Shown: positions 9,181 to 11,780 of the stretch, piece by piece
Layout: the number at the start of each line of letters is the position of its first letter
Position numbering within the stretch: the stretch's first letter is position 1
Source of the DNA: Alphaproteobacteria bacterium
Lineage (GTDB): Bacteria > Pseudomonadota > Alphaproteobacteria > Ferrovibrionales > Ferrovibrionaceae
Direction of reading: 5' to 3'
Length of the DNA stretch: 64,000 bases
Assembly: GCA_026126215.1 (NCBI GenBank)
Contig: JAHCJQ010000003.1
Location: 1 to 64,000, forward strand
The notes under the pieces: model-generated
What the model was told of the DNA's origin: nothing
Databases searched by the model: none
The model's input: only the letters and a program-made list of their open reading frames with translations
Made by a program: the position numbers and the translations under genes

Positions 9181-9214
9181 CCCGCCGCTCCTGCTTCAGG
9201 CGAGGAGCGGCGGG
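9181..9214. terminator. Hairpin between convergent genes, probable bidirectional terminator
   Basis: A perfect 12-bp GC-rich stem (arms 9181-9192 and 9203-9214, 10-nt loop) lies just after the MDR reductase stop and includes the last codons and stop (9196-9198) of the minus-strand decarboxylase. No T-run follows on either side, so termination strength is uncertain. Confidence 0.5.
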
Positions 9215-10401
9215 TCGCTTACTTCGACGAACCGGGCCCGGTCGAAACCATTGAAGGCCGTGCGCAGCGTGGCGCCGTAGGCCCCGAGCTGGCCGATCTC
9301 GATCCAGTCGCCTTCGGCCACGTCGCCGGGCAGGCGGAACGGCCCGTTCATCCGGTCGAGGCTGTCGCAGGTCGGACCGAAGAACCCGAAATCCTGCGGC
9401 GCCGCCTCGCTTGCCCGCAGCAGGCGGACGGGAAAACGCCAGTTGAGGGCGCCGGCATCGGAAAGACTGCCGTAGATCCCGTCATTGACATGCAGCATCC
9501 CGCCGCGGCGCGCCTGCACCTGGACGATGACCGAAATCCCGGCCGCGACCAGTACCCGCCCGGGTTCGGCCCAGAGCCGCGCGGGCGCAAGCGTGCCGAG
9601 ACTGGTGCGCAACGCCGCGGCTTCGCCGGAGATGGCGTCCATGAAGCGCGCAAGATCCGGCACCGCGCTGCCCGGATAGGGCACGGGGAAGCCGCCGCCG
9701 ACATCCAGAATGTCGACCTTCGCGCCCGCCCGTGCAATGACCTCGCCCGCAAGGCGAATGGCGCGCGCCCAGGCCGCCGGCTCGGTGCATTGCGAGCCGA
9801 CATGGAAGGCGATGCCAAGCCGATCCGCGCGCGAGCGGGCCAGGCGCAGCAAGTGCGCCGCCAGTGCCGGCTCGGCGCCGAACTTCCCGGACAGGTCGAG
9901 CGCAGCCTCGCCCTTCGGCAGGGCGAGCCGCAGGATCAGGCCGAGATCGCTCCCGCCGGCCGTGGCCGCCAGAATTTTCTCGAGTTCCGCCTCGCTGTCA
10001 AAGGCGAAATCGCGCACGCCATGGCGCGACCAGGCCTCGGCAATGGCACCTCGTGCCTTGACCGGATGCATGTAATGGATGGCGGACTCCGGCAGCAGTT
10101 GGCGAACCAGAGCCACCTCGGCCGGCGAAGCGCAGTCGAAAGCGCGCACACCGCCTTGCCAGAGCAGCGCCAGCACCCGCGGATCGGGATTGCATTTCAC
10201 TGCGTAAAGCGTCTCGCCCGGGAAGGCGTCGACGAACGCGCGCGCGTTGGCGCGCAGCGTCGCGGGCCGCAGGCAGTGCAAGGGCTCTTCCGGACGCAGC
10301 TGGGCCACCACTTGCTCCACGCTGGGCCGGCTGCGTGCGGGCATGCGCTCCGCGCCACGGCGAAGCGGGGCGACGGCGAGACGGAAACGCGGCTGGTTCA
10401 T
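9196..10401 (-). CDS. speF: Ornithine decarboxylase, fold-III PLP enzyme (alanine racemase-like)
   Basis: Decarboxylates ornithine, or possibly lysine, to the diamine in the cytoplasm; 401 residues. PLP lysine is Lys69 in YAVKCNPDP; HVGSQC and the phosphate-binding DVGGGFP follow. The C-terminal GPTCDSLD (Cys345) is the catalytic motif of ornithine-type rather than diaminopimelate decarboxylases, and GAYGATLRTAFNGF closes the barrel. The start at 10401 has a strong AAGGAGG; the frame continues upstream only through the leader. The N-terminus is about 20 residues longer than in typical alphaproteobacterial enzymes. A ~340-nt leader with a tiny ORF precedes it, suggesting control by ornithine or polyamines. 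The symbol follows the usual name of the gene behind the alphaproteobacterial speF RNA and is an inference. Confidence 0.88.
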   Translation of the reverse strand: MNQPRFRLAVAPLRRGAERMPARSRPSVEQVVAQLRPEEPLHCLRPATLRANARAFVDAFPGETLYAVKCNPDPRVLALLWQGGVRAFDCASPAEVALVRQLLPESAIHYMHPVKARGAIAEAWSRHGVRDFAFDSEAELEKILAATAGGSDLGLILRLALPKGEAALDLSGKFGAEPALAAHLLRLARSRADRLGIAFHVGSQCTEPAAWARAIRLAGEVIARAGAKVDILDVGGGFPVPYPGSAVPDLARFMDAISGEAAALRTSLGTLAPARLWAEPGRVLVAAGISVIVQVQARRGGMLHVNDGIYGSLSDAGALNWRFPVRLLRASEAAPQDFGFFGPTCDSLDRMNGPFRLPGDVAEGDWIEIGQLGAYGATLRTAFNGFDRARFVEVSDPPLLA

Positions 10402-10743
10402 CTCCACACCCTCCTTCGGCTGCCGGCCACGATGGGTCCGGAACGCCGACGCAAGACGTTCAGATCTTCGGACGCCGTCCGCGCCGCAGGGGTGGCGCGC
10501 CGTCGCCGGTTCGATGTCAGGAAGAGGCGCTGCTCCCGCCCGCCGCCAGAATCGGCGAGGATTGCGGAAGGTTTCTGGCCGTGGCCCGATGCCTGTCAGG
10601 GGTTCATCGCGCTGTGCCGAGCGACCAACATAGCCACTTCCTTCAAGGCACCGGCCCACTGTCGACCGGCTCTCCGAAAAGGACGCGTCACGTCGTTGCT
10701 GGACCGGGCTCTCTCAGCCGGGGCACGTGCGAATTGCGTCTCG
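10402..10743 (-). promoter_or_regulatory. Long 5' leader of ornithine decarboxylase, candidate speF-type regulatory RNA
   Basis: About 340 nt without a main gene separate the decarboxylase start from a plausible promoter. The leader holds an 11-codon ORF (10596-10631), then a hairpin (GCCAGAA/TTCTGGC arms at 10545-10551 and 10573-10579) and further GC-rich inverted repeats before the AAGGAGG. A cis-regulatory RNA called the speF motif is known upstream of ornithine decarboxylase genes in alphaproteobacteria, and enterobacterial speF is controlled by an ornithine-sensing leader peptide. Matching this leader to that RNA family is inference from gene, position and length; I cannot align the consensus here. 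Confidence 0.6.
10596..10631 (-). CDS. Putative leader peptide of ornithine decarboxylase (11 codons)
   Basis: On the coding strand of the leader an ATG at 10631 opens the frame MLVARHSAMNP followed by TGA. It has a good Shine-Dalgarno, GAAGGAAG (10637-10644), 5 nt upstream, better placed than for many real genes nearby. The stop lies 194 nt before the decarboxylase ATG. A short, well-initiated ORF followed by a hairpin is the arrangement of attenuation by ribosome stalling. Chance occurrence cannot be excluded without comparing relatives. Confidence 0.5.
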   Translation of the reverse strand: MLVARHSAMNP

Positions 10744-10749
10744 AGGGCT

Positions 10750-10777
10750 GATATATAGAGTTGTCCGGCCGGTGCAA
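10750..10777 (-). promoter_or_regulatory. Candidate promoter for the ornithine decarboxylase leader
   Basis: On the minus strand TTGCAC (10777-10772) and TATATC (10755-10750) are separated by 16 nt in an otherwise very GC-rich region. A transcript from here would start near 10743 and carry the whole leader. Confidence 0.4.
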
Positions 10778-10803: not shown

Positions 10804-11691
10804 TTACGGCGCCAGAAGCGACAGGTATTCCCAGACGAAGGTTGCGGCGGCAAGCGCGGTGATCTCCGCCTGGTCGTAGGCGGGCGCCACCTCGACCATG
10901 TCCATGCCGACGAAGGACAGGCCCCGGAGGCCGCGCAGGATCGCCTGCGCCTGCCAGGTGGCGAGGCCGCCGATCTCCGGCGTCCCGGTGCCCGGCGCGA
11001 AGGCCGGATCGATGGCGTCGATATCGAAGGAGAGATAGCACGGCCCTGCGCCGAGCAGCACCCGCGCCCGTTCAGCGATGGCGGCCGGCCCCAGCTCGTG
11101 CACCTCCTGGGCACTGACGACGGCAACGCCCTGCGCCAGCGTCCAGTCCATGACCTCGTTCTGCACCGGCGAGCGGATGCCGATCTGGATCATCCGCTGC
11201 GGATCGACCAGCCGTTCCCGGATCGCGTGGTAGAAGCAGGAGCCATGGCCATGCGGCTGCCCGAAGCTGTCCGGCCAGGTATCGACATGGGCGTCAAAAT
11301 GAACGAGGCCAACCGGCCCATGCCGGCGGTGGAGGGCGCGCAGAAGCGGCAGGGAGATCGCATGGTCGCCACCCAGCGTCACCAGGTGGGCAAACCGGCC
11401 GGCCTGCTCCTCGATCAGGCGGAAGCTGGCCTCGATGTCGCCGAGCGCCACGGCGAAGTTGCCCAGATCGGCGATCGGCCGGGCAAGCGGGCTCCGACGT
11501 GCCACCGGATGATTGCCATCGATCAGCATCCGGCTCGCATGCCGGATCGCCCGCGGTCCGAACCGCGCGCCCGGCCGGTTGGATGTGGCGATATCGAGCG
11601 GCACACCGGCGATGACGATGTCGGCCGGTCCGTCGGTCATTTTCAGGCCAAGGAAGCCGCCCTCGATGGCAAATGTCGGCGTTTCGCTCAT
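10804..11691 (-). CDS. Agmatinase / ureohydrolase family protein
   Basis: Binuclear-manganese ureohydrolase (295 residues) that would hydrolyse agmatine to putrescine and urea. Metal-ligand motifs are complete: GGDHAI, HFDAHVD and SFDIDAIDPAFAPGTGTPE. Absence of arginase-specific features and the DIDAIDP form fit the agmatinase branch, although guanidinopropionase or guanidinobutyrase activities are common in this branch. The frame is open upstream, but the ATG at 11691 gives the normal family N-terminus; its ribosome site is weak, and an ATG at 11727 is the alternative. It lies upstream of the decarboxylase on the same strand, giving two putrescine-forming enzymes side by side. Confidence 0.88.
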   Translation of the reverse strand: MSETPTFAIEGGFLGLKMTDGPADIVIAGVPLDIATSNRPGARFGPRAIRHASRMLIDGNHPVARRSPLARPIADLGNFAVALGDIEASFRLIEEQAGRFAHLVTLGGDHAISLPLLRALHRRHGPVGLVHFDAHVDTWPDSFGQPHGHGSCFYHAIRERLVDPQRMIQIGIRSPVQNEVMDWTLAQGVAVVSAQEVHELGPAAIAERARVLLGAGPCYLSFDIDAIDPAFAPGTGTPEIGGLATWQAQAILRGLRGLSFVGMDMVEVAPAYDQAEITALAAATFVWEYLSLLAP

Positions 11692-11780
11692 CGCGGAAAG
11701 ATAGCAGGCTTCGCGCGGAGCAGCCATGCGGGGTGGTTTGCCCTTGCCTCGTGCGGCGTCAGCATGCAGCCTGCCCGGCG

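Follow-up and report, generated by a model that had tools for sequence, protein, structure and literature searches.

Upstream of the ornithine decarboxylase gene ODC2 in the window (the whole stretch of 64,000 nucleotides that was analysed) lies a leader that carries an ORF of 11 codons. The locus raises the question of how this leader acts on ODC2, and whether the small ORF does so through its peptide or through its translation. An earlier note on this DNA had proposed a stalling peptide like enterobacterial SpeFL, a link to the speF RNA of Alphaproteobacteria and a hairpin downstream of the ORF.

The ODC2 locus

The locus consists of the following features:
10804..11694, minus strand: agmatinase-family gene, upstream of the leader on the same strand (NF002564 and TIGR01230 above cut-off)
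10777-10772 and 10755-10750, minus strand: promoter-like hexamers, -35-like TTGCAC and -10-like TATATC, with a 16-nt spacer
10629..10740, minus strand: conserved leader RNA element (P1-P4), its 3' end at the ATG of the leader ORF
10596..10631, minus strand: leader ORF MLVARHSAMNP, 11 codons and TGA, with the Shine-Dalgarno sequence (SD) GAAGGA at 10644-10639
10587..10609, minus strand: P5, small hairpin over the ORF end (CGATG/CATCG), stop codon in the loop
10402..10595, minus strand: spacer to the decarboxylase, structure at chance level, containing the SD GAAGGAGG at 10410-10417
9196..10401, minus strand: ODC2, PLP-dependent fold-III ornithine-type decarboxylase (Pfam PF02784/PF00278)

The nearest solved structures of ODC2 in the PDB are a lysine/ornithine decarboxylase and an ornithine decarboxylase. 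No NCBIfam equivalog scored above cut-off for ODC2, so its substrate is assigned by homology only. A second paralog in the window's genome, ODC1, is about 34 % identical to ODC2.

When the sequence was read again, the leader ORF and the promoter-like hexamers were found where the earlier note had put them. The predicted transcription start (about 10743, just ahead of P1) and the decarboxylase ATG at 10401 of the minus strand also give the leader length of about 340 nt that it had stated. Hexamers of this kind recur at a similar distance 5' of the conserved RNA in many relatives, where they do not score above shuffles, and a strict consensus promoter scan gave no match.

The hairpin that had been placed at 10545-10579 does not exceed chance and sits in the spacer, the least conserved part of the leader. 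The additional structure claimed 3' of the ORF fared no better: shuffled sequence folds at least as well as the region 10372-10595 (z = +0.88), a comparison of folding energies that is uninformative in GC-rich DNA such as this. A single conserved structure was sought across lineages in the spacers of ODC2 leaders and was not found.

A conserved RNA element upstream of the leader ORF

The conserved RNA structure at 10629-10740, upstream of the ORF, had been missed by the earlier note. The upstream regions of ODC1 and ODC2 share the arrangement GACGC-n-CGCACGTGCC ... GCAACGACG-n-GCGTCCTTTTTGG ... SD ... ATG. When a covariance model (R1) was built from twelve ODC1 leaders only, with the window's clade left out, it matched the window at 10744-10629 with 52.1 bits (E=3.4e-12). 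R1 matches were found in 18/18 genomes of the order and in 53 of 337 sampled genomes of the class. Hosts detected by the pattern scan include Azospirillum, Magnetospirillum, Roseomonas and other Acetobacteraceae, Parvibaculum, Reyranella, Zavarzinia and Desertibaculum.

In the window's own genome the element precedes both ODC paralogs and R1 matched both copies. The second copy (G000:C67:36-144, locus L074) lies at a contig end and is probably the ODC1 leader; the ODC1 gene begins close to the end of contig C42.

The following parts of the element were distinguished:
10736..10740, minus strand: P1 5' strand GACGC, pairing with 10682-10686; covaries
10722..10731, minus strand: invariant block CGCACGTGCC, including the P2 5' strand CGTGC at 10723-10727
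10705..10721, minus strand: P3, variable hairpin (GGCT/AGCC with the extension GG/CC)
10691..10699, minus strand: invariant block GCAACGACG, including the P2 3' strand
10682..10686, minus strand: P1 3' strand GCGTC, followed by the U-tract
10674..10683, minus strand: P4 5' strand TCCTTTTCGG, anti-Shine-Dalgarno and U-tract, pairing with 10639-10648
10650..10670, minus strand: inner hairpin of P4 (GCCGGTC/GGCCGGT)
10639..10648, minus strand: P4 3' strand CCTTGAAGGA, containing the leader-ORF SD GAAGGA

P2 is formed by CGTGC/GCAACG, and the 3' strand of P4 is the SD of the next AUG. The comparison of relatives thus shows a P1/P2/P3 domain at the predicted transcript start and, behind it, a predicted helix P4 in which the U-rich strand after P1 pairs with the SD.

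Among 98 matches, 94.4 % of the cells pair and two-sided changes occur in 24 of the 27 pairs; cells with two-sided changes number 98 against 14.3 in shuffles (0/500). These margins are large, although the alignment was fitted to the structure and is made of related sequences. Structures slid along the alignment reached at most 11 pairs with two-sided changes. The first 12 sequences were too uniform for a pair count. All eight pairs of P4 covary. In one relative (G003), where CCTGTTCGG stands in place of the usual U-tract, the SD side is altered to match (TTATGGGA); such covariation with the SD side shows that the tract is kept for pairing. P1 and P4 are both present when the window RNA is folded at minimum energy, and the fold energy of the element is not below that of shuffles (z=0.11). 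With just two bases shared between P1 and P4, a simple either/or switch between them is not evident.

When the two genomes of the window's genus were compared, the element differed at 1 of 112 positions, the region upstream of it at 4 of 48 and the spacer at 12 of 194. Selection therefore acts on the RNA element, as the contrast between 1/112 and the spacer value indicates.

Relation to speF and ar45

Rfam models were run at gathering and at permissive thresholds. The speF model RF00518 (threshold 37 bits) had no hit in the window when the limit was relaxed to E<=10, and its best score in the window's genome (9.8 bits) lies elsewhere. No match to the ar45 model RF02347 (threshold 40 bits) was found in the window or its genome. 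RF00518 misses the window because it represents the 3' half alone of the leader as published; the counterpart of the window's element is the 5' half, a separate entry in Rfam under the name of the sRNA ar45. The proposed link to speF thus holds in substance, as homology to the extended leader, and the check by alignment to the Rfam family failed. In the same genome, at G000:C159:30450-30501 (L001), the serC RNA element RF00517 was matched with 55.3 bits.

In Rhizobiales-type leaders, RF02347 and RF00518 lie 8-10 nt apart in all eight genomes that have ar45 above cut-off. R1 matches coincide with RF02347 at Rhizobiales ODC leaders, and on the ar45 half of RF00518-positive loci, which were not among its training sequences, R1 scored 15-23 bits (E 4e-4 to 0.05 in 168 kb). 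P1 reads GCCC/GGGC in the Rhizobiales type as against GACGC/GCGTC and covaries between the two types.

The extended speF element (Corbino et al. 2005, PMC1273637) is found upstream of COG0019 ornithine decarboxylase genes in Alphaproteobacteria, is conserved from the transcript start and consists of a base stem with a variable insertion followed by a long bulged stem-loop. The window agrees in these respects: a P1-P2 domain with both invariant blocks is followed by the U-rich P4 strand, all upstream of an ornithine decarboxylase. It differs in what stands after P4, where the RF00518-type 3' half is absent and a start codon, the small ORF and an unconserved spacer are found instead. With ar45 (RF02347) the element shares the 5' half with CGCACGTGCC, GCAACGACG, P1 and the U-tract; unlike ar45, it is part of the ODC2 leader. 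We conclude from these alignments that the window's element and the ar45 half of the extended speF leader are homologous, with divergence in the 3' part, and that the element should be regarded as an unlisted variant. The published extended element (Corbino et al., PMC1273637) is consistent with this conclusion, and so is the adjacency of ar45 and speF in Bartonella (PMC7717549), where ar45 is expressed apart from speF, which adjoins directly downstream. In Methylosinus, ar45 was mapped as a separate unit (PMC12403871).

Already known are speF (2005), ar45 and an analogous motif with an 11-codon ORF, odc1 of Sphingomonas (PMC8632094). A literature search with few subscription papers in reach found neither a description of ar45 and speF as one SD-masking leader beyond the Rhizobiales nor one of the element's small ORFs and its link to homospermidine.

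Like the window, odc1 (uORF-25-1) is an alphaproteobacterial ODC leader with the ribosome-binding site in a hairpin and an adjoining 11-codon ORF (PMC8632094). Unlike the window, it has a hairpin with a pseudoknot, two UUG starts 5 nt apart, a strongly conserved peptide and no CGCACGTGCC/GCAACGACG; in a comparison with the published description and with locus L012, neither the pseudoknotted hairpin nor the two UUG starts were found in the window, where the leader has a single ORF that starts with AUG. L012 (1330-1470) is a Sphingomonas-like ODC2 ortholog with an odc1-like motif, whose UUG ORF MNWPSTIARWG overlaps the main UUG start. ODC2 can thus carry either of two unrelated RNAs, each with a small ORF: the one seen in L012 or the one in the window.

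ORFs that follow the element

A total of 170 loci were examined. In 39 of them the ODC1-type enzyme itself begins at the AUG behind the element, and a separate ORF that starts there precedes ODC1 in 46 and ODC2 in 56; six further ODC2 loci, outside the search pattern, also have a separate ORF. In two genomes of the window's family (G006 and G009) the AUG after the element is the ODC2 start and the leader ORF is absent, and in Desertibaculum-type genomes the element sits directly on the decarboxylase start codon. Since the element's AUG starts the decarboxylase itself in some loci, the element is able to work where a leader ORF is lacking. At one locus (L093, 1608-2488) this AUG shares its frame with a gene for a class-I glutamine amidotransferase and not with a decarboxylase.

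The ODC1-type leader ORFs (12-69 codons) are coding, as they show third-position bias (254 vs 114/131) and the control after the stop is flat. Their C-terminus reads [PLRSQ]SS[MLIQ] in 26 of 37 cases, as compared with 0.2 in codon-order shuffles; the second Ser is AGT in all 21 cases listed and the neighbouring codons vary. P(L)SS[MLIQ] ends were seen on ORFs that differ in length and sequence (L073, L079, L083, L087, L103-L105, L137, L151, L173, L183 and others), and the Desertibaculum ODC1-type ORF ends in ...LIGRKNPLSSMCSRQ. This end, with its fixed codon, is a candidate arrest peptide.

ODC2-type leader ORFs have mostly 9-17 codons. A stop by codon 17 occurs in the ORF frame of 44 of 50 ODC2 leaders and in 17 and 24 in the other frames, and hairpins stand at the place corresponding to P5 in other ODC2 leaders (mean z -0.94); these counts, like those for the ODC1-type ORFs, were taken over related sequences and not over independent events. 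Substitutions by codon position (421/398/421) show no third-position bias, and a conserved peptide under purifying selection, as in SpeFL-type leaders, was not found among the ODC2-type ORFs. The peptides differ among relatives (MLVARHSAMNP, MLFRHIRSLV and MIAPGHSTGSP), the P(L)SS motif occurs in 1 of 50, and no motif was seen across lineages. Between the two genomes of the window's genus the ORF has one difference in 36 positions, a synonymous one, too few to judge. The SpeFL-like stalling peptide suggested for the window ORF is thus not supported.

Two other peptide features were considered and rejected. The AMRSPRIA likeness among Acetobacteraceae, taken as a peptide motif, is explained by the hairpin GCGATGCG/CGCATCGC, in which L239 carries the double change GCGGTG/CACCGC. 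Arginine is enriched in ODC2-type ORFs (16.5 % vs 12.4 %), but attenuation at Arg codons was set aside as the sequences are related and the window ORF has only one Arg in eleven codons.

The enterobacterial SpeFL/speF leader, like that of the window, has a small ORF 5' of a gene for ornithine decarboxylase; no sequence relation between SpeFL and the window ORF was seen. SpeFL is a conserved peptide of 34 codons, and its decarboxylase has a fold unrelated to that of ODC2. A sequence-specific stalling peptide is unlikely for the window ORF, and it is plausible enough in the ODC1-type leaders to be worth a test.

Homospermidine synthase genes at the element

A homospermidine synthase gene stands directly behind the element at L126, L203, L218 and L224 (best PDB match E 1.9e-177). 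When loci with this gene after the controlled decarboxylase are included, about 40 are found; examples of the latter are L177 (ODC1 of the window's genus) and the Azospirillum loci L149, L152 and L161. In the window itself the gene is not beside ODC2, and the link is drawn from relatives. The leader ORFs before the synthase look alike (MTGHSPAPIPRHDR in L224 and MFGPVLAPPPRIER in L203; compare MNGHAPAPYPRNDR in L200).

Homospermidine is a main polyamine of many Alphaproteobacteria. Six compounds gave a negative ligand result with the Agrobacterium leader, and homospermidine was not among them (PMC1273637). On the strength of this gene neighbourhood, homospermidine is the best untried candidate for the signal of the element.

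Proposed mechanism and alternatives

The element probably adjusts polyamine production. Our preferred reading of the alignments, held with moderate confidence, is that the window has a divergent ar45-half leader in which P4 gates the next AUG in response to a polyamine signal and translation of the leader ORF decides the fate of the ODC2 message. A signal of polyamine status would act on the P1-P2 domain and shift P4 between its closed and open forms, and initiation at the next AUG would be gated in this way. The gated AUG would be the decarboxylase's own start in some relatives; in the window it would start the 11-codon ORF, the peptide sequence of which would matter little. Translation of this ORF may affect ODC2 by unfolding the end hairpin, by re-initiation or by shielding from Rho. 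The ORF ends 194 nt before the ODC2 start, and ODC2 has its own strong SD at that distance, so the route from gating of the small ORF to ODC2 is only inferred.

Alternatively, control could be exerted on transcription, with P1/P2 and the U-tract forming an unusual intrinsic terminator that releases a short ar45-like RNA, a signal that stabilises or melts P1 and a secondary role for the leader ORF. The Rhizobiales ar45 half is indeed known as a discrete short transcript (Bartonella, PMC7717549; Methylosinus, PMC12403871), the Rfam ar45 match ends inside the U-tract, and nearly all relatives have a T-run of 4-5 behind P1. However, the tract is merely CUUUUC in the window and UGUU in G003, a simple terminator scan finds none at the window leader, and the covariation of the tract with the SD side shows that it is kept for pairing. 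Attenuation is rather unlikely on this evidence, and early termination at the U-tract is treated as a serious alternative or addition to P4 gating.

The two remaining explanations differ in the weight they give to the ORF. If a ribosome on MLVARHSAMNP stalled with ornithine or a polyamine, as in SpeFL, and thereby switched ODC2 on or off, the position, SD and length of the ORF would fit, and so would the Arg enrichment and the conserved, third-position-biased P(L)SS[MLIQ] peptides of the sister ODC1-type leaders. The variable window-type peptides, their flat substitution pattern and single P(L)SS case, the hairpin behind the AMRSPRIA likeness and the absence of the ORF from G006 and G009 make such arrest improbable. 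Were the ORF instead a chance one, with the RNA acting alone and the AUG after the SD a decoy, the lack of a conserved peptide would be expected, and the single difference within the genus is too few to judge. Yet Azospirillum, Acetobacteraceae, Magnetospirillum and the window's family, with many related sequences among them, retain an AUG or GUG after the SD and a stop within 9-17 codons, and we consider a chance ORF very improbable.

Gating by P4 may also be one output among several. It is a doubtful but wider possibility that ar45, speF and the unlisted Rhodospirillales-type elements form one class-wide homospermidine sensor with interchangeable outputs, which would be direct gating of the decarboxylase start, gating of a structural short ORF (as in the window), gating of a longer ORF for a novel kind of arrest peptide with the end P(L)SS[MLIQ], and early termination that releases ar45.

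Significance

Since 2005 speF has counted among the orphan leaders, and in current listings ar45 is an sRNA without a known function. Here the two are united in one leader, which is extended to many Alphaproteobacteria that Rfam misses. The comparison also indicates that a ribosome-binding site is masked by the second helix of this leader, and it links the leader with homospermidine synthase. It provides a specific compound that the published negative results do not include, and conserved leader peptides as candidates for ribosome arrest.
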